From positions 29,650,333 through 29,714,332 of the forward strand of contig OX419756.1 in the NCBI GenBank assembly GCA_948567375.1: a DNA stretch of 64,000 bases, in the 5' to 3' direction. The notes under the pieces were generated by a model that ran no database searches, was not told the origin of the DNA, and saw nothing but the letters and a program-made list of their open reading frames with translations. Origin of the DNA: Lunularia cruciata (taxonomy: Eukaryota > Streptophyta > Marchantiopsida > Lunulariales > Lunulariaceae). The position numbers and the translations under genes are program-made. Position 1 is the first letter of the stretch, and each line of letters opens with the position of its first letter. This document shows, one piece after another, positions 9,226 through 48,660 of this stretch.

Positions 9226-10300
9226 TCAAGTAGAGTAATTCCTTTCTATGGTATTTAGTTGGTGAGACACAAAGGCAATGGGATGTAACTCATTTGGGAA
9301 CTCTTGCTGTAATACGACTACAATTGTAAAGTTAAAAGCATCAAAATCAACCACACAAGGTAGTTGAAGGTCATATGGTTGAAGAACGGATCTTGAAGAC
9401 ATCATATATTCCAAATTTTGGAATGTTTTTTTGTGCTTGGTGGTCCTTTGAAAGCTCAAGTTCTTCTCCAAGATGTTGGTCAATGGTGCAGCAACATGAG
9501 CATAGTAGTGGATGAATTGTAAGTAAAAACTTGCAAATCCATTAAATGCTTGTACTTCTATAGCATCCTTTGGAGTAGGCCAATCAGTAATGGCCTTGAT
9601 TTTTTCCTCTTCCATCTTGATCTCCTTTGATGAGATCTTGTGATCCAAGAAGGTTACTTCCTTTTGCCAAAAGGTACACTTTGACTTCTTGTTGTATAAC
9701 TTCCACTTACATAGTCATCTTAGGACTTCTTACATGTGATTTGCATGCTCTACCTCTACCTTGGTATAGATTAAAATTTCATCCAAGAACACCATCATGT
9801 ATCTATCCAATAGCCCATCCAACACCCAATGCATCTGATCTATGAAGATTGTTTGAGCATTAGTGAGCCTAAAAGGTAGAACTCTCCACTCAAAATACCC
9901 ACACCTTGTATGAAAAGCAGTCTTTTGCACAACTTCTTCATCAATGAGAATTTGCCAATAGCCAATTTTTAAATGCAACTTGCAGAAGTATCATACTCTA
10001 CTCAATTGATCGAGCAAGTCATTAATTAGAGGCAAGAGATACACATTCTTCACTGTTTGTTTATTGAGACCATGATAAGCAATATAGAAGTAAAGCCATC
10101 CATACTTCTTTGGAACAAATATTAATAGTTCTCCCCAAGGTGATGTACTATTTCATATGAAATCCTTTTCCAATAACTCTATTAGTGTTGTTCAAATCTC
10201 ATCCAACTCCTTTGGTGAGAGCAGATAGATTGTCTACTCATTGGAGTACTTCTTAGCAATAACTCAATTTTGAAGGACATACCATAATCAGAGTGTAATC
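9226..10300 (-). pseudogene. Family B Ty3/gypsy reverse transcriptase and RNase H (broken)
   Basis: In an intact element this copies the RNA genome into DNA and degrades the RNA strand. Reading leftward on the minus strand, about 10290-9980 gives decayed finger and palm motifs (LIFVPKKYG, YHGLNKQTVKN, LPLINDLLDQL). The frame 9730-9978 gives GYWQI and KTAFHTRCGYFEWRVLPF, then the catalytic box as FLDEILIY, where FLDDILIY is usual, so one catalytic Asp is lost. The frame 9226-9648 gives the connection region (ITDWPTPKDAIEVQAFNGF) and RNase H (VVDFDAFNFTIVVVLQQ in place of the usual TDAS motif). Stops and frame breaks add to the point losses. Confidence 0.9.
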
Positions 10301-23042: not shown

Positions 23043-23144
23043 TAATGGTATAAGAGCAAGGTTCCTTTTCAATGAGATTCTATCATCCTCTTTCAAGAGG
23101 ATGATATCATCTCATAGAAAAGGAATCATGCTCTTATACCATTA
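23043..23144. repeat. 102-nt foldback with about 50-bp arms
   Basis: The left arm starts TAATGGTATAAGAGCA and the right arm ends GCTCTTATACCATTA. About 44 of 50 positions pair, and the loop is only a few bases around 23092. Neither arm is seen elsewhere in the window. It could be a miniature foldback element, a fragment of a small-RNA hairpin, or a local inverted duplication. Confidence 0.6.
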
Positions 23145-31260: not shown

Positions 31261-32132
31261 ATCAATATGCCAATCCCTCCCACGTTCAGGCAGTGGGTAC
31301 TGTGTAGATTCGTTGGGAATGTTCCTCACATATGGGTAGATATCATCCTATAGCTTGCAGCTACTAACAGATCCTGTAGGCTGCTCTCCCCTCTCTAACG
31401 CTTTAAAGATGATATTTACTCCGTTCACTCGGGGTCCATGCTCCAAACCGGTCATCGTAAAGCCTCAAGCAAGCGAGCATTTGCACCATTTCATCTCTCT
31501 AGTCTGCTCATGACACGGTACGAACCGTACGGTTTCAGAAGTGTAGAGTTAATCTGCAAATGGTCTCCAATCCGAGTGCTCGATGCGCTCCTGCTTCTTC
31601 TATATCGTTGTGGTGTGGCCTGATATGTCTAGATGTTTGAGCTGGCTATAACTTGTCCCATGGATACCTGAATCCGCCTAATAATCTAAGGCGATGCACC
31701 GCAAAGTTCCCGGTGCTCCCCGGTATTGACTTTATCACGCACCCACTCTTCTCCTCGTGTGCTAATTATGCGGTAGAACTAATTAAAGCTTTCAACCCGA
31801 GTGAAATCACAAACACCAAAAATACATAAACAATCAATAAGTGAGGTCAATAAGGATAACAGTTTGAGTGGATTATCAAATTTAGACGCCCTTTTCACTT
31901 CTATTCCGCCATTTGCGCATTTACGTCCAGACCTAAATTTAAGTGAGGACAAACGATGTCTCCCGCTATTCTGAGCTCGTCCCACATTCTGCGCTGGCGA
32001 GCTGCCCAGCACGTCCCGCTAAGTCCTACAGTCCGCCCGTTATATTCCACCGTTCCACTTCTGAATATCATGCATCATAGGGACTACATTGACCTCCTTG
32101 TTGGTAAACGGAAAGTGAAGTTCTCGGTGGGG

Positions 32133-32183
32133 AGATCGATCGATCGATCGATCTATCCCTCTATCTATCTATCCATCGATGAT
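32133..32183. repeat. GATC/CTAT tetranucleotide microsatellite
   Basis: A run of GATC units passes into CTAT units, ending in ATCGATGATCG. Immediately after it is CGTACAA at 32184-32190, matching the core of the known SBP-domain binding site. Confidence 0.75.
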
Positions 32184-32457
32184 CGTACAAGTAGAAAGAA
32201 AGAAAGAACCCACCTCGATACGTTTTCTTCTTTTCTGTGAGTAAACAAGAGGAAAGACCAGCATGCCTTTGAGGAAGACGAGCACTCAAAAACGAACGGC
32301 GGCCTATTTCTTTACCTGTTTCTGTTCATGTCTTTCCATGCACCTCAACTCGCTGTCCGTCCTTCTTGACGTGACAGCCATGCCCAGCCCAGCCTAGCCA
32401 AGCCAAGGCCGGAACAGAACAGAGCACAACGAAGAGAAGATTCAGAGAAGAAGAAAC

Positions 32458-32479
32458 GTCTGTCTGTCTGTCTGTCTGT
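32458..32479. repeat. GTCT tetranucleotide microsatellite
   Basis: About five uninterrupted GTCT units. Confidence 0.85.
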
Positions 32480-32851
32480 TCCGGTGGGCCGGGTCTTACC
32501 TCTCTTGCCTGGGCTGCCGAGAAGCTAGCTCACATTCATTGACGTCTTTGGTGGAAAGAGAGAGAGATTGATAAGGTCCGAGAATGGATCATCCGACGAA
32601 GCCAGTGAAGTTAGGAAACCTGCACGAATGGATGAGAGCAGGCGATCACGATCATCCTCTTCATGATCTTACCAAGTGAGCTGCACTGAGCGTTGCTAGC
32701 GCAGAAGTGGGAGAGATGATCGGGGAGCTCAGTCATATATGGAGTGAAGAATGAGAGCTGACGGATGGATGCCACACACGCCGCCGCAAGGGCCGGCCCC
32801 CGCACGCCCACTTCCTTGCCTCCTCTCGAGTGAAGAAGCGTTCCTCCTGCC

Positions 32852-32858
32852 TATAAAA
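32852..32858 (+). promoter_or_regulatory. Candidate TATA box of the miR529 primary transcript
   Basis: TATAAAA in a pyrimidine-rich GC context, about 430 bases upstream of the first hairpin. A start site would be expected near 32885. No protein frame begins just downstream that would compete as an explanation. This is a motif call only. Confidence 0.45.
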
Positions 32859-33271
32859 TCCACTCTCTATAACTTGTTTCTCCACCGAACCTTCATCACC
32901 GATGTTCAGTCTCAACCTGAAGGTCAATGTGGTCCCTCCTCTCATGCCACACCCCGAGAGGATGATGCCGAGGGCACGGTCTGTTGACGTAACTTGCTGT
33001 CTTTGCAATTGGCTCATGCACTAGATAACCAGTGTGTGTTTCCACGTTCGCCTGCATCCTCTAATTGGCTACACCGACGAGCACTGTTAGTAGAGACGCT
33101 GCTGTAATAGCAGGGATTACAGTCGTAGTTTCCTGTCGGATCAGATCCCTATCCTGTCTTACGAGCTGCGATTCGTCATTATAGCTCACATCCAAGAGCC
33201 ACGCAGGCCGTTGGTCATGACCCCCTATTATGGCCGAGGCATGTTCTCCACATCGGCTACTTAGACAATAA

Positions 33272-33377
33272 TTCACGAGTGATGGAAGAAGAAGAGAGAG
33301 AGCACAGCCCTGTGCTCATGACACTGCGTTGTCGTGCTTGGCTGTGCCCTCTCTCTTCCACTACCGGCATCCGTGAG
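33272..33377 (+). ncRNA. MIR529: miR529 precursor hairpin, first of two
   Basis: The 5' arm carries the miR529 mature sequence at 33290-33310 (AGAAGAGAGAGAGCACAGCC plus C). The 3' arm carries its star at about 33340-33360, starting GGCTGTGCCCTCTCTCTTCC. Pairing covers 18 of the 21 positions of the duplex, with a mismatch at mature nucleotide 12 (33301), and continues below as a lower stem to 33272/33377 with a few mismatches. The loop is about 30 nt. miR529 guides cleavage of SBP-box (SPL) mRNAs at a site overlapping that of miR156. The family name comes from recall of the mature sequence; the foldback itself is directly visible. Confidence 0.9.
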
Positions 33378-33421
33378 CCTCTAGCCCATCATCATTAACG
33401 ACAGATTGAGTGCCCGCCCGC

Positions 33422-33546
33422 ACATGAATGATGGCAGCAGAAGAGAGAGAGTACAGCCCCTTGTCACTTGCGGTACTCAGATTTCTCTGCGTTTCTCAAC
33501 TGGCTCACGGGCTGTACCCTCTCTCTTCGACTGCCGCCTTTCATGT
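33422..33546 (+). ncRNA. MIR529: miR529 precursor hairpin, second of two
   Basis: The mature position is 33439-33459 and differs from the first hairpin by one base (C to T at nucleotide 14, giving GAGAGTACAGCCC). The star at about 33510-33530 has the compensating change (GGCTGTACCCTCTCTCTTCG), so the pair is kept. The mismatch at mature nucleotide 12 is again present. The lower stem pairs cleanly from 33422-33437 to 33531-33546 with two mismatches. The loop is about 50 nt and unrelated to that of the first hairpin. The compensated change argues that both copies are functional. Confidence 0.9.
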
Positions 33547-33655
33547 TCAAAGTTACCGCTTCAGTTCTCGTGCAGATTATTGTAGAGAGCGAGATTCTCT
33601 TTCCATCGAGAGGAAAAATCAACCCGGCCTACACACCCAGATGGCCATATGACAG

Positions 33656-33661
33656 GTAAGC
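33656..33661 (+). promoter_or_regulatory. Candidate 5' splice site downstream of the miR529 hairpins
   Basis: GTAAGC after ACAG, a strong match to the plant donor consensus, 110 bases past the second hairpin. The acceptor cannot be chosen from sequence alone. Confidence 0.35.
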
Positions 33662-36240
33662 GTCCATCAACCTACCAGGAAGCATGCGGATTGGGAAGCC
33701 TGTGTGCCCTTGACACTCGTTTGTAGCACATGCACGCGGAATCATCATCTGCGTTTCGTTGGCGGAGAGGAGGGCAGGTTCTTGAATAGCATGAGGTCTC
33801 CAAGCCTTGGGAGTGTGTAGAGAAAAGTCATGGCGTCTGAAGACGTTCAGCATAAGCTGAGAGGGTTTGTCGAGACCTTTTCTGGATCACGTGTCCTCGT
33901 GTACAAGTATAAACACGTCGCAACTAGGGGTGGATTGTAGTAACATGAATCGATGAGAGAACAGGTGCAGCCTACTTCACGCACTTGCGCATTTAGTGGA
34001 TGTGCAACAAGGTATAACTCTTGTTACATGAATCCAAGTTGATTGATTATCAGGTGTCTGGGGATATTCAGACTGATGCTAAATCTCCTTTTGCCTTAAT
34101 CAAAGGCGAAAAGTGATTTTGCTAGGAACTCACTCCATATCGAGCAGGGGGTTGTTTCCGTCGACGCTCGTTTTCAGACTGCCGTAAAGGAATGGTTACA
34201 TTATATCATTCCTGAATTGAGAGAAATGGTACGCATCCATACCATTCATTCCGTGCTGTGGGTAGAATGTGAGGATACTCTCTAGTGCTCAAATGTGAGG
34301 GTGGTTCACCTAGTTACTCGTCAGTCAAACGTTATTCTTAGCATTGTACAAATGTAATGAGTTGGGGTTGAATTCTTTGCGGAGAACGCTCACAACATTG
34401 TGATTTAGAATTCAATGTAACTAGCAAAGGAAGTTTTATCTAGTGGCTAGAGCAAATGAACTGCAGTAATGGCTATCTGTGTATCCAACTACATCATGTG
34501 AAGACATGAAATGAAAATCAAATTCAACCAATTTCTATACGGAGGAGTTTGATCTGAACTGTATACATCTCGTAATATAAATCGTGGAATGGAATATCCT
34601 CTGAAACTATGAACTGATGCAGTCCAACTATCTAACCTGAGTGCACTTTGAGGTGGGATGAATGACAGTCTGTAACCTACTGTCTAGTGATTGCTTGTAT
34701 CGCCGTGACTGGAATGTTCAGTGTAAATAATTGTCGCTGATATTAGATCTTGAATGTGCACTTGATAGTAGTGCATATGAACTGAACATGAAATTTGTAT
34801 AATCACATTATTAGATTGTCGGTAGAAACATCAAATTAAAAGCCATCATAGCTTTGTTAATTTCAAATAACAAAATGTTTAAACTCCTCGCTATAATATG
34901 TAAATCTAAATTGCATACTACGCATGTGAAAAATTTATAATATATCTATTACTTTTCCCAGAAAACTACAGTTTATTTCGGTACATTCCTGTGGGAAGTC
35001 GATACATGTGAGAGACAGCCTTCTATGTTGTGCAAAATTCTCTTTGGATGTTTTTTGTGCATTCTCGTTCAACATCACTCTGTATAAGTTTGTAATTCTC
35101 AAGATCGAGATCTGATAAATAAATTGATGGTATAATTGGGTGAAAGTACAGTTATTCTTTATATGTTAGTACATTTTACCTCCGTCTCAATCATTCGAAC
35201 TGACTGACAAATTGTACAGTTCACTTCAGATTCAACATTGTAGAACCATACTAAAACAAACAAGGCAGTTTGTACCCAACAATGTAAACTCATCTACAGC
35301 CGAGAGAGATAATCAACGGCAACAAGCAATGGACCGTACCATTTTTTCACGTCCTTGCGAGAGGGTGTAGGAAGATCGGGAGTGGAGCGAACGGAAATGC
35401 TAAGCTTTGAGTATCCACCGTTCATAAGTGTATGCAAGTCGAGGTCGCAACGGACTGCTAGCGTGTTTGCGACAAGGCGATGCAAGACTAAATTGGCCGA
35501 TACACGTTACCTACAATGAATGTTTTAGCTCCTTCGCTACATCGCGTCTCCTTGTTATTATAAGACTATGTCAAGGCGTCCAGATGAACACGCAACATAG
35601 AAAGAGAGATACAGATAGAGTCTTCATGAGACTTGGTCTGCTAGTTCCTTTAAAGTGCATGCACACGATATTAACACGTCAAAAGCCAACATAGCCAGCG
35701 TAGTTGTTAGCCTCCATCTATCATTGTGAAAAAGACTATATGCATCCGAAAAGAAAGACTGCCGAGCTATTAGCTGGGGATCTGGTTGAAGATGGTGAGT
35801 ATGCCATCCACCGTTTATCGTCACCTGTTATGGGTCGGGGCCTTTTTTTTTCGATTCACAGACCTGGACTGTGAAGCATCAGTTATACACCATCAATGTC
35901 ACAGGCGAGGGAAGAAATTGTAGTAATACAGTATGTTATGTTTAACTCCGGTCAAGTCAAGTAACATTCAGAGACCTTATCTGCGACTGCAGAAGGGTTC
36001 CATGTTAGTATTCTCAAAACCAAAACATGAGAATGAAGGGATAGATATAAGAAAGAAACAGTTCGTCCAAACGATCATCCACCTCAGTCTTGAGGAACCA
36101 ATTCTCTGTCCTTCCTAGGCCATAGTTTACCAATGTTTCATTCTTCTTACATGATCAATGAAAGCCCAGTCTGAGTAGGTCTTTCATCACTGAGCACTGT
36201 TGAAAGCCTGTGTGAAAAGTCGGATTGTGAAGAACACAAG
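33662..36240. other. CpG-containing intergenic sequence after the miR529 cluster
   Basis: No gene is recognised. It may contain later exons or introns of the primary transcript. A G-box CACGTG is at 33888-33893. An AT-richer part runs about 34750-35250. Confidence 0.45.
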
Positions 36241-45245: not shown

Positions 45246-45283
45246 GGTTGCATCACACCAGTGATGCAACCATCACTGGTGTG
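45246..45283 (+). promoter_or_regulatory. Two overlapping, mutually exclusive hairpins in the copia leader
   Basis: GGTTGCATCAC pairs perfectly with GTGATGCAACC (45246-45271, loop ACCA). CACACCAGTGATG pairs perfectly with CATCACTGGTGTG (45254-45283, loop CAAC). They share 45254-45271, so only one can form at a time. They lie between the PBS and the gag start. Confidence 0.6.
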
Positions 45284-45309: not shown

Positions 45310-45585
45310 ATGTCTACCTTCTTGAAAGACCAAGAATTGTTTGATCTTGTCACAGCGATTGAAACTTGGCTGGTTGGTGCTCCTTCACATCCTCATGTAC
45401 GTGCTTGGAAGAGCCGCGCTGCTAATCAAGCCGTGTATTATCTTTCTTTGTGTGTTTCACCATTATTGTTTGCTTCCATACAAGATGTTCATACTCCCAA
45501 GGAGGTTTGGGAAGCAACGGGCAAATGCTTTCCAGACATCGAACAAAGGCAAGAAATTAATGAAGCAGCAACTAATAGGAGGTAA
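45310..45585 (+). pseudogene. Copia gag, N-terminal part
   Basis: A 91-residue open frame typical of the copia-type gag family: WLVGAPSHPHVRAWKSRAAN, then a hydrophobic stretch (YLSLCVSPLLFASIQDVHTP) and KEVWEATGKCF. Gag packages the RNA genome into virus-like particles in an active element. The first ATG at 45310 fits, coming soon after the leader hairpins. The frame ends early at 45585 compared with a usual gag of several hundred residues; a frameshift separates it from the remainder. Confidence 0.75.
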
Positions 45586-46560
45586 GAAAATATAAGCATC
45601 GCCTATATGTTTATCACATTTGTGGTTTAGTTGAACAGCTGAATAGCATTGGAGTTAAGGTTGAAGATAATTATCTAATTCCATATAATATTCAAGATCT
45701 ACCAAAGAAGTATAAACCTTTTGCGACGTCTATAGCCATCAGAGATATTTATCCTCTATGTAACAAGCTAATCATGATATTAGTATCCCAAGAGATGCGG
45801 TTGCAAAGGTGGTGGCAATGGTCTTGTCCCTCTAGATCAGGTTTTGCTTGCTGGAAGAGGTATGCGAGAGGCAAAGGACGCAGAACATACTTCATGGAGG
45901 TGCCATTGGCAGAAGTCAATCCTCATAGAAATATCAAAGTCCACAAGGCAAGTAAGTACATGATGATCGAATTATTGGTTCTGCAATTATTGTAAATAAT
46001 TGCCTCATTATGAGAAGACCTTTTTTAAGAAGCAAGTGCAGGTAAACTCACTCGATAGAACTATATGGAGAAAGATTCTTACTCCAAGAATCATCTACTA
46101 GTGATGATTCATATAAATGCATTGAGGACAAAGAGTGAAGAAGAGTGGTTCATAAATTCTGAATGCTCAAACAAACATGACCCATCAGGTTAGTTTATTC
46201 AGTTCCAAATAAACAATTATTTGAAATTTTAGTTGTGAATATGGGTGATGATCTTGAACACACTATCACTTGCACATGGGAACTATTCCATTCTCAACTC
46301 CGTTGTGGAATTTTAATGGTTTAGTAGAAGTACTTCATGTGCCTACAATCACCAAGAAAGAACCTAGTGTTTGTCAGCCAAATTATTGAGAAATTTTTCA
46401 GGTTTTATTTAACAAAAATGGTGTTGTTAATAAGTAAAAGAAATGTGCTATCCAAGGAAGATGCAAATTTGTATCCAAAATAAGGAGGATGGTTAAGTTA
46501 GACATCAAGATCCCCAATGTTACAAATCAGAATACTATGTTTATTCACGGCTTCACTGCA
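45586..46560 (+). pseudogene. Copia gag C-terminus and protease (broken)
   Basis: Near 45975-46045 the sequence reads as a decayed CCHC knuckle (FCNYC, then HYEKT after a shift), with the final Cys lost. At 46139-46185 it gives EEWFINSECSNKHD, the copia protease active site, normally WxxDSGCSxH, with Asp changed to Asn and Gly changed to Glu. The loss of the catalytic Asp alone would inactivate the enzyme. Confidence 0.65.
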
Positions 46561-47260
46561 CTTTTTGGTATAAAGTATTGCATAACATGAACCTAAAAAG
46601 ATTGATGATGCCACCTATCTCTGATTTAGTTAAGGGTCTTCAACATTTTTTGATCTTTTGCCTATATGTTTTGTGAGCTTGTCAATTTGGTAAGTAAGCT
46701 AGACAATGTTTCAAGCATCATGATACAAGGGACTCAATGGTGTTAAAATTGATTCACTCCAATGTATAGACTTTTTCAGAAGAGTGTTTGACCAGTTCTA
46801 AATAGTTTATCTTATTTATTGATGACATTTCAAGGTATAAATGGGTTTTTGAAAAAAAATCAGATGTCCTTTTGGTCTTCAAAATATTCAAGCTACTTAT
46901 GGAGAATTAATATGGTCATAATATCTTATGTCTACATTCTCATGGGGGAGGGAGAGTTCCTTTCATATCATTTTGATGCATTTTTACATGAGCAAAATAT
47001 CAAGCAAGAAGTTACTTGCAGCTACACACCAACAAAAAGGAGTTGTTGAGTGGAAGAACCAACATATTGCAAACGTTGCAGAAGCCGTGCTCAGCATGAA
47101 GGCACCCCCAAGTGCTATTGTGCAGAAGCAGTTAATTGTGTGATTTACTTGAAAAACCAATCTCCTCCTACAATGGTGCAAAAAAATGCCACCTTGTCAA
47201 GCTCTTACACATAAGAAACTTGATTTATCAAATCTAAAGGCTTTTATTTTTATTTTCTTT
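46561..47260 (+). pseudogene. Copia integrase (broken)
   Basis: By position this is the gag-pre-integrase and integrase region. Pieces visible are a KYKWVF-like phrase near 46830, then HSHGGGRVPF and TPTKR, the latter near where YTPQQNGVVERKN is usual (AATHQQKGVVEWKNQHIANV is read across 47020-47080 in another frame). The catalytic Asp positions cannot be placed with confidence because of shifts. Confidence 0.65.
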
Positions 47261-47860
47261 GTTCATTTTCTTGATGAGAAAAGGCAAAAAATAGACTTTT
47301 GAAGCATAAAAATAAAAATTTGTCTTTCTTGGATATGCTTCAACTTCAAAAGGATATAGTTGTTTCTATTATTGATAGATAGGTTATATTGAGGAGTTTA
47401 ATCTTGGCATCAGGCTCTTACAAGTTGCATACCTGATTTACCACTAATTGTACCCTCTATTTCTTCCATTGTTCCCTCTATTTCTTCCATTGTTCCAACC
47501 AGTAATTTTGTTCCATAAGTTGGTATTCAAGTTCCACCAATGTTTCTAGTGAGCACTCTTGTTTCTCATCCATTTAAAAATCCTTGGTCAACCTGTCAAA
47601 AGGATTCTCAACTCAAAAGAAAATTACTCTCTACTTTGTACACTAATATTTCTAATACTTTGTTGGAAAAAATTGGCAGATCAACCACCTAGTTCAAAAG
47701 TTCCAATTCCTTTACATGAAGCTACAAATAATTCTTCTTAACCTAAACCTATGCCTCAGAAAAGGATAATTCCATAAGTCAAATATCTAGTTTGACTCTT
47801 TCAACTTTAAGCATTTTTAGCACAACACCATATATATATGGTAAAGGCTATCTAAGAACA
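47261..47860 (+). pseudogene. Copia integrase to RT spacer (decayed)
   Basis: A Ser/Pro-rich linker is expected here, and Ser/Pro-rich short frames are seen (47559-47741). A phrase TCTATTTCTTCCATTGTTCC is directly repeated at about 47456-47497. There is no other feature. Confidence 0.45.
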
Positions 47861-48660
47861 AGAACCAAATCTCTTGAGGAAGTGATGGATCATGCAGATT
47901 TGATGCAAGCCATGGAGCGTGAAGTTGCAAACAATACATCAACAACAAATATGGGAGTTGGTGAATTTACCTCCCAGTAAGGCAATTTGCTACATGTGGA
48001 TTTTTAAGATCAAGAGAAATTTCAATAATTTTGTGAGTAGATACAAGGCAATACTTATGGCAGAGGGCTACTCACTACAATATGAAATTGATTTTGATAA
48101 GACATTGGTACTTATTTTCAAGATGTTATCAATTTGTGATCTCTCAACTTTTGTCATCTTACATAAGCAAAAGCTCTATCCAATGGACTTCAATCACGCT
48201 TTCCTCAATTGAGATTTGGAGGAGGAGGTCTACATGATCCAACCACTTAAATATGAAGATCAAAGATGCCCAAAAGATAATAATTTATTGTAAAAGGAAG
48301 AGGTCTCTCGCCTTGGCCACCTTAAATAAGTGGAAGCTCTATCAAATGAACTTCAATAATGCTTTCTTCAATGGAGATTTGGAAGAAAATTTCTACATGA
48401 TCCAACTATTTAATAATGATGATTCAAAATATCTCAACAAAGTTTGTCATTTAAAAAATCTCTTTATGGACTTAAGCAGGCTCCATAAGCTTGGAATTCC
48501 AAAAAGTATCTATCTCTTATCCATTAGATTTCAAGTTTGCAGTTCAGATTCTTTGTTGTACCCATCACATGCTGGTGAAAATATTGTTTTGTTTATCATC
48601 TATGTTGATGACCTTATTATCACAAATAGCTATCAAGATCTCATTATGTAAGTAAAAGAA
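47861..48660 (+). pseudogene. Copia reverse transcriptase (broken, YVDD intact)
   Basis: Motifs in order: LEEVMDHADLMQAMEREVAN and NNTSTTNMGVGE (the W-AM-E-N-TW region), a kWvfKIK-like WIFKIKRNFNNFVSRYKA, GYSLQYEIDFDKT, then FNHAFLN and a second FNNAFFNGDLEENFYMIQ, and finally IIYVDDLIITNS with both catalytic Asp residues. Stops interrupt the first of the two FNHAF copies, and frames shift several times. The doubled segment is listed separately. Confidence 0.85.
48136..48425 (+). repeat. 163-bp tandem duplication inside the copia RT
   Basis: AAGCTCTATC occurs at 48171 and 48334. The following bases give the same RT motif twice (DFNHAFLN-stop-DLEEEVYMIQP and NFNNAFFNGDLEENFYMIQ). The copies differ at roughly a fifth of positions, so the duplication is old. 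Confidence 0.75.

Follow-up and report, generated by a model that had tools for sequence, protein, structure and literature searches.

Analysis of the window, that is, the whole 64,000-nucleotide stretch of Lunularia cruciata DNA presented above, revealed two neighbouring foldbacks that by sequence and structure form a true tandem MIR529 locus of an ordinary kind. The locus supplies two predicted mature miR529 variants. Overall, it is quite likely that the pair is a locally duplicated MIR529 pair, carried on a single transcript and processed to two miR529s acting on matching mRNAs. The mature identity, the foldbacks, the duplicated arms, the stem-keeping changes and a third member upstream were all seen in the analysis; the shared transcript, its processing, the loading and the targets are inferred. 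Features of the locus are given below with their window positions and strand.

33272..33377, plus strand: hairpin 1, MIR529 precursor; fold -54.2 kcal/mol; Rfam MIR529 E 1e-9, 45.9 bits
33421..33547, plus strand: hairpin 2, MIR529 precursor; fold -68.6 kcal/mol; Rfam MIR529 E 2.2e-12, 54.9 bits
33290..33310, plus strand: predicted mature miR529 on the 5' arm of hairpin 1; 18 of 21 positions paired
33439..33459, plus strand: predicted mature miR529 on the 5' arm of hairpin 2; 19 of 21 positions paired
33341..33361, plus strand: predicted 21-nt star of hairpin 1, placed as the pair partners in the fold with a 2-nt 3' overhang
33511..33531, plus strand: predicted 21-nt star of hairpin 2, placed in the same way
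32852..32858, plus strand: TATA-box-like TATAAAA about 415 bases upstream of hairpin 1; the sole plus-strand TATAWA in 32001-33290

A 2-nt 3' overhang is the rule by which a star is placed opposite its mature strand.

Identity and folding of the two hairpins

The predicted mature of hairpin 1 (33290-33310) reads AGAAGAGAGAGAGCACAGCCC and that of hairpin 2 (33439-33459) reads AGAAGAGAGAGAGTACAGCCC. The letters of the former are printed in a table of PMC5426797 as a fern read matching ppt-miR529d 5p with an E value of 0.002, the same value as that table's other perfect matches, and the letters of the latter are printed under ppt-miR529e in a table of PMC12027079. The likeness to the Physcomitrium (P.) patens MIR529 family thus extends to the same 21-nt letters as printed for the ppt-miR529d match and for ppt-miR529e. 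Hairpins 1 and 2 have predicted stars that start with GCTGTGC and GCTGTAC, respectively; the former letters also open a fern miR529 3p read compared in PMC5426797 with ppt-miR529d 3p. In Rfam, MIR529 (RF00908) scores best for each hairpin on the plus strand, ahead of MIR535 and MIR156. Grass MIR529 shares this family model, with the difference that the hairpins analysed here score 54.9 bits (hairpin 2) and 45.9 bits (hairpin 1), both below the gathering score of 75, which is a library cut-off and not a defining feature of a microRNA family; at gathering level, the Rfam scan of the window listed zero families. The family name, given in the initial annotation on the strength of the mature sequence, is supported by the printed mature letters and by the best Rfam family, with scores below gathering. 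As is characteristic of MIR529, each mature occupies the 5' arm and pairs with its star at all but a few positions (3 and 2 of 21 unpaired). Mature positions 1 and 12 are unpaired in both hairpins, which have in common an A.C mismatch at position 12, and position 21 is additionally unpaired in hairpin 1.

The same annotation had described two foldbacks with a miR529-like mature on the 5' arm, a well-paired star on the 3' arm and long lower stems. Its coordinates for the two matures proved exact, and the lower stem measures 17 nt in each hairpin, with small interruptions; the spacing it gave as 44 bases is in fact 43 bases (33272-33377 versus 33421-33547), with both hairpins on one strand. Folding of both intervals, which it had proposed as a check, agreed with the described structures. 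Hairpin 1 with its flanks (33262-33420) reached -57.2 kcal/mol (z -4.24), hairpin 2 with its flanks (33405-33560) reached -70.5 kcal/mol (z -7.19) and the two folded jointly reached -126 kcal/mol (z -8.36); none of 200 shuffles was as stable in any of the three cases. When 3194 overlapping 130-base windows of the plus strand were ranked by energy, hairpin 2 occupied the second and fourth ranks and hairpin 1 the fifth and sixth, ranks 1 and 3 being taken by a separate inverted repeat near 23 kb. This repeat (23043-23144) has a MITE-like look, with 34 of 36 arm positions paired and -68.9 kcal/mol over 130 bases, and matched no Rfam family at gathering score.

With up to 3 mismatches allowed, the mature pattern has four matches on the two strands of the window, namely the two matures and the two star complements; shuffles gave a mean of 0.01 matches and none of 100 reached four. 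An ungapped-arm scan (36 nt, at least 30 pairs) found four placements in the 64-kb window. Two are the hairpins themselves, another is the 23-kb repeat, and the remaining one pairs the hairpin 1 3' arm with the hairpin 2 5' arm. Five shuffles gave 1, 0, 1, 2 and 0 such placements, with at most 31 pairs. Because shuffled sequence also yields 36-nt arm placements, mature identity together with structure is more informative than arm length by itself. These counts, and a genome rich in CT-rich near-matches to the miR529 core, are what speaks for chance foldbacks within a CT/GA-rich stretch. We consider the probability of that reading close to negligible, since 0 of 200 shuffles were as stable, per hairpin, and 0.01 mature-pattern matches are expected in the window.

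The 3' arm of hairpin 1 and the 5' arm of hairpin 2 are 74% complementary, which makes a competing fold possible; when the two hairpins are folded jointly, the minimum-energy structure keeps them separate despite this cross-pairing potential. The complementary strand folds equally well or better (-55.9 kcal/mol for hairpin 1 and -73.4 kcal/mol for hairpin 2) and scores nearly equally for Rfam MIR529 (45.4 bits for hairpin 1 and 54.2 bits for hairpin 2). The strand assignment therefore rests on the mature letters.

Duplicated arms and a third hairpin

Alignment of the two hairpins revealed that their arms are direct repeats (5' arms, 37 nt at 86%; 3' arms, 36 nt at 81%) and that their loops do not align. 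Further direct repeats of at least 14 nt were not found in 32800-34200. Search of the genome for the mature pattern with up to 3 mismatches gave 22 places versus 8 for the reversed control pattern, and six of the 22 fall in three foldbacks, that is, the tandem pair and a third hairpin. Neither mature of the tandem pair has a further perfect match in the genome.

C2:29614997-29615075, same strand as the pair: third MIR529 hairpin, 68.6 kb upstream of the pair

The mature of this third hairpin reads AGAAGAGAGAGAGCACAGCCU, with CCU at its end. BLASTN of 6 kb around the pair against a 10-kb stretch with hairpin 3 gave four matches at E < 0.05, each between one hairpin arm and another. In the three-hairpin alignment, standard pairs occupy 94 of 103 pair cells (91.3%), and slid structures are 40.0-48.4% paired. 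Changes on both sides were observed in five of 35 pairs, including C-G to U-A at mature position 14, and the covariation score was reached by two of 500 shuffles, a count that comes from three sequences only and from a structure derived from those same three. On this evidence, the similar arms, the unalignable loops and the paired changes that keep the stem identify the hairpins of the pair as two duplicated precursors.

The places with weaker folds among the matches, L013 and L020 (18 and 17 paired positions) and L012 and L018 (16), were left out as MIR529 hairpins. A covariance model of the three hairpins, run on the window and 21 of 69 loci (162 kb), gave eight matches at E of 1 or below. 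Six of these are the three hairpins on both strands, which match by construction, and the other two are weak (L035:9274-9324, E 0.09; window 45254-45283, E 0.28). The hairpin count of three is therefore that of the mature-pattern search at up to 3 mismatches, combined with the folds of its matches.

Genome-wide distribution also bears on whether the pair is an inverted-repeat siRNA locus or a transposon-derived foldback that merely resembles MIR529. A minus strand that folds equally well and a second long foldback in the window near 23043-23144 would suit such an origin, but we regard it as very improbable: two matures of the family are present and unique in the genome at zero mismatch, the mature arm is not dispersed (22 places at up to 3 mismatches) and the stem changes are compensated.

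On the complement of the three hairpins, the mature arms code for CALSLL or CTLSLL, like an SPL target site. Plant microRNA genes can arise from their own targets by inverted duplication, and the occurrence of CALSLL/CTLSLL on the complementary arms fits such an origin.

Probable shared transcript, predicted processing and known arrangements

The close spacing on one strand (43 bases) is best read as a bicistronic gene, and the tandem pair probably lies on one primary transcript. The TATAAAA at 32852..32858 could conceivably be the promoter of this shared transcript. Under the proposed mechanism, local duplication of one foldback would have produced the tandem precursors and RNA polymerase II would make one transcript bearing both hairpins. 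The DICER-LIKE1 enzyme would make its first cut about 17 nt above each base and its second 21 nt further. The products would be two miR529 variants differing at position 14 (C or U), both presumed to be loaded into an ARGONAUTE1 complex. The loaded complex would then cut mRNAs with a matching site, which in related plants are those of SPL (SBP-box) transcription factors.

It is also conceivable, but unlikely, that both hairpins are MIR529 precursors with separate transcription or with only one of them still active. They are indeed unlike in loop length and in score (45.9 versus 54.9 bits); against this, a second promoter has little room in 43 bases, and mature-star pairing has been kept in both through paired changes.

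The sequence around the pair, called gene-free in the initial annotation, is gene-poor as far as tested, but retroelement remains are present and short spliced exons could escape a frame scan. Two stop-to-stop frames of at least 150 aa occur in the 64 kb, one of which is a retroelement RNase H, and a Pfam scan of 20 of the 227 frames of at least 60 aa found only retroelement domains passing the curated cut-off, in two of the 20. Remains of LTR retroelements were observed at 9226-9714 on the minus strand (RNase H domain; Pfam RT_RNaseH_2, 2.3e-15) and at 45310-48209 on the plus strand (copia-type pieces; RVT_2 3.5e-11, with Retrotran_gag_2 below its own cut-off). The hairpins coincide with a local G+C peak, 51% in 32001-34000 versus 26-44% in the remaining 2-kb bins of the window.

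A tandem miR529 arrangement is already known for moss, since PMC4409300 reports, as data not shown there, three miR529 pairs among seven genes less than 100 nt apart. The tandem hairpins analysed here likewise lie less than 100 nt apart. According to PMC9291395, polycistronic miRNAs make up 25% of those in P. patens. For Marchantia, the one polycistronic locus named in PMC9291395 is MIR390/MIR11676. The same general tandem-precursor layout is seen in the tandem MIR156 genes of rice, where the pairs named as tandem are miR156 and the two miR529 genes are described as segmental duplicates. A tandem miR529 locus in a liverwort was not described in the titles and abstract openings of the open-licence literature among the matches listed. 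The tandem pair and third copy in a liverwort suggest that expansion of the family took place outside mosses too.

SPL genes and candidate targets

SPL genes number one to four in streptophyte algae, hornworts and liverworts, and those targeted by miR156/529 belong to SPL Group 2, most members of which have in common a motif containing ALSLLS, which the miR156/529 site encodes (PMC10796333). Marchantia is presented with miR529 and without miR156, and its miR529 holds back the switch to reproduction (PMC10796333, PMC10721683); miR529c acts there on MpSPL2 (PMC10796333). The liverwort Pellia is listed in PMC9291395 with miR156, miR535 and miR529; the main text of the Pellia paper itself (PMC4368373) is without the word miR529. 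miR529 is also reported to target TAS6 loci in moss (PMC3565333) and, in Marchantia, MYB genes (PMC8541648).

A total of 565,766,749 bases on 74 contigs, of which eight contigs of 60-85 Mb make up 558 Mb, were used for the genome searches. SBP domains were searched for with Pfam SBP at E 0.001 and E 10 and with two SBP protein queries at E 10, and the best first-look candidates were scored. Three SBP-box genes were found, at C1:37588034 (minus strand), C1:38514033 (plus strand) and C12:32942594 (minus strand); a fourth did not appear at E up to 10 among the best first-look candidates scored genome-wide. Weak extra matches lie at C12:13384393 (E 1.5) and C8:53727871 (E 4.4, with an internal stop), and inspection of the sequence of another, C2:32608640, indicated that it is not an SBP domain. 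The nearest solved structure is SPL7 for the C12 gene and SPL12 for both C1 genes. By eye, the gene at C1:38.5 Mb has an ankyrin-like frame downstream, and the gene at C1:37.6 Mb carries letters that we take to be typical of SPL8, a member of Group 1.

Analysis of 20 kb around each SBP gene revealed no convincing miR529 site, the lowest sense-strand penalties being 7, 8 and 8; this search covered ungapped, unspliced sites, and the gene at C1:38.5 Mb may extend beyond its 20-kb stretch. The same penalty score applied to 50 kb of other sequence gave three places at 7 or below, which are the two arms of hairpin 3 and one repeat-like place. The gene at C1:38.5 Mb codes for ALSLL once and its penalty-8 stretch coincides with this motif. 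The stretch was not counted as a site because the other two genes equal or better it without the motif; it could conceivably be a decayed miR529 site. SBP-box target control, which the initial annotation had put forward, is thus known for the family but was not confirmed in this genome, in which no convincing site came up in the 20 kb around each of the three SBP genes found.

Likeness to the MIR529c-MpSPL2 module of Marchantia polymorpha consists of miR529 without miR156 and a small SPL set. The miR156 mature pattern gave no match in the whole genome at up to 1 mismatch, and the miR535 mature pattern gave none at up to 2 mismatches. Together with an SBP set of three genes found, this sets the genome apart from that of P. 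patens and agrees best with a liverwort. The two species differ in that Lunularia has three MIR529 hairpins, two of them in tandem, and that an MpSPL2-type SPL, the type regulated by miR529 in Marchantia, was not found among the best first-look SBP candidates genome-wide. This gene is more likely to have been missed through a gap in the search or the assembly than to be truly lost. It is decidedly doubtful that the lineage retained and amplified MIR529 (three hairpins in 69 kb) and lost the Marchantia-type SPL target, so that the microRNA acts on other transcripts, an LTR-like repeat with a G:U-wobble core site being a possible partner. If the SPL loss were true, this genome would be a natural test of the role of a conserved microRNA without its main target.

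Other candidate sites were sought by genome pattern searches, with a complementarity score calculated for 48 matched loci (L005-L022 and L040-L069), several of which are overlapping MIR529 copies. The lowest scores outside MIR529 loci were found for L005 (1), for L008, L014, L019 and L021 (2 each) and for L017 and L022 (2.5 each). Judged by eye from their motifs, the frames at L019 and L022 resemble trihelix/SANT DNA-binding proteins and the L021 frame resembles an F-box protein. Plant genes often have CT-rich 5' ends, and for this reason none of these places is claimed as a target. The short stretches L072-L074 have a complementarity score of 5. L074 reads CALSLL in one frame, and no SBP domain came up near it.

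Search of the genome for the 18-nt miR529 core with up to 2 mismatches gave 4278 places versus 123 for the reversed pattern. Judged by their flanks, L008 and L014 are copies of a dispersed LTR-like repeat (also represented by, for example, L042 and L044), many copies of which are about 5.87 kb apart among the matches listed. Its core site is probably one CT-rich repeat by chance, and its copy number may be high enough for the repeat to be relevant as a miR529 target or decoy. The repeat carries CTGTGTTTTCTCTCTTCT or close forms, which correspond to a core miR529 site in which one or two pairs are G:U wobbles, and its flank ends near GTATTACA.
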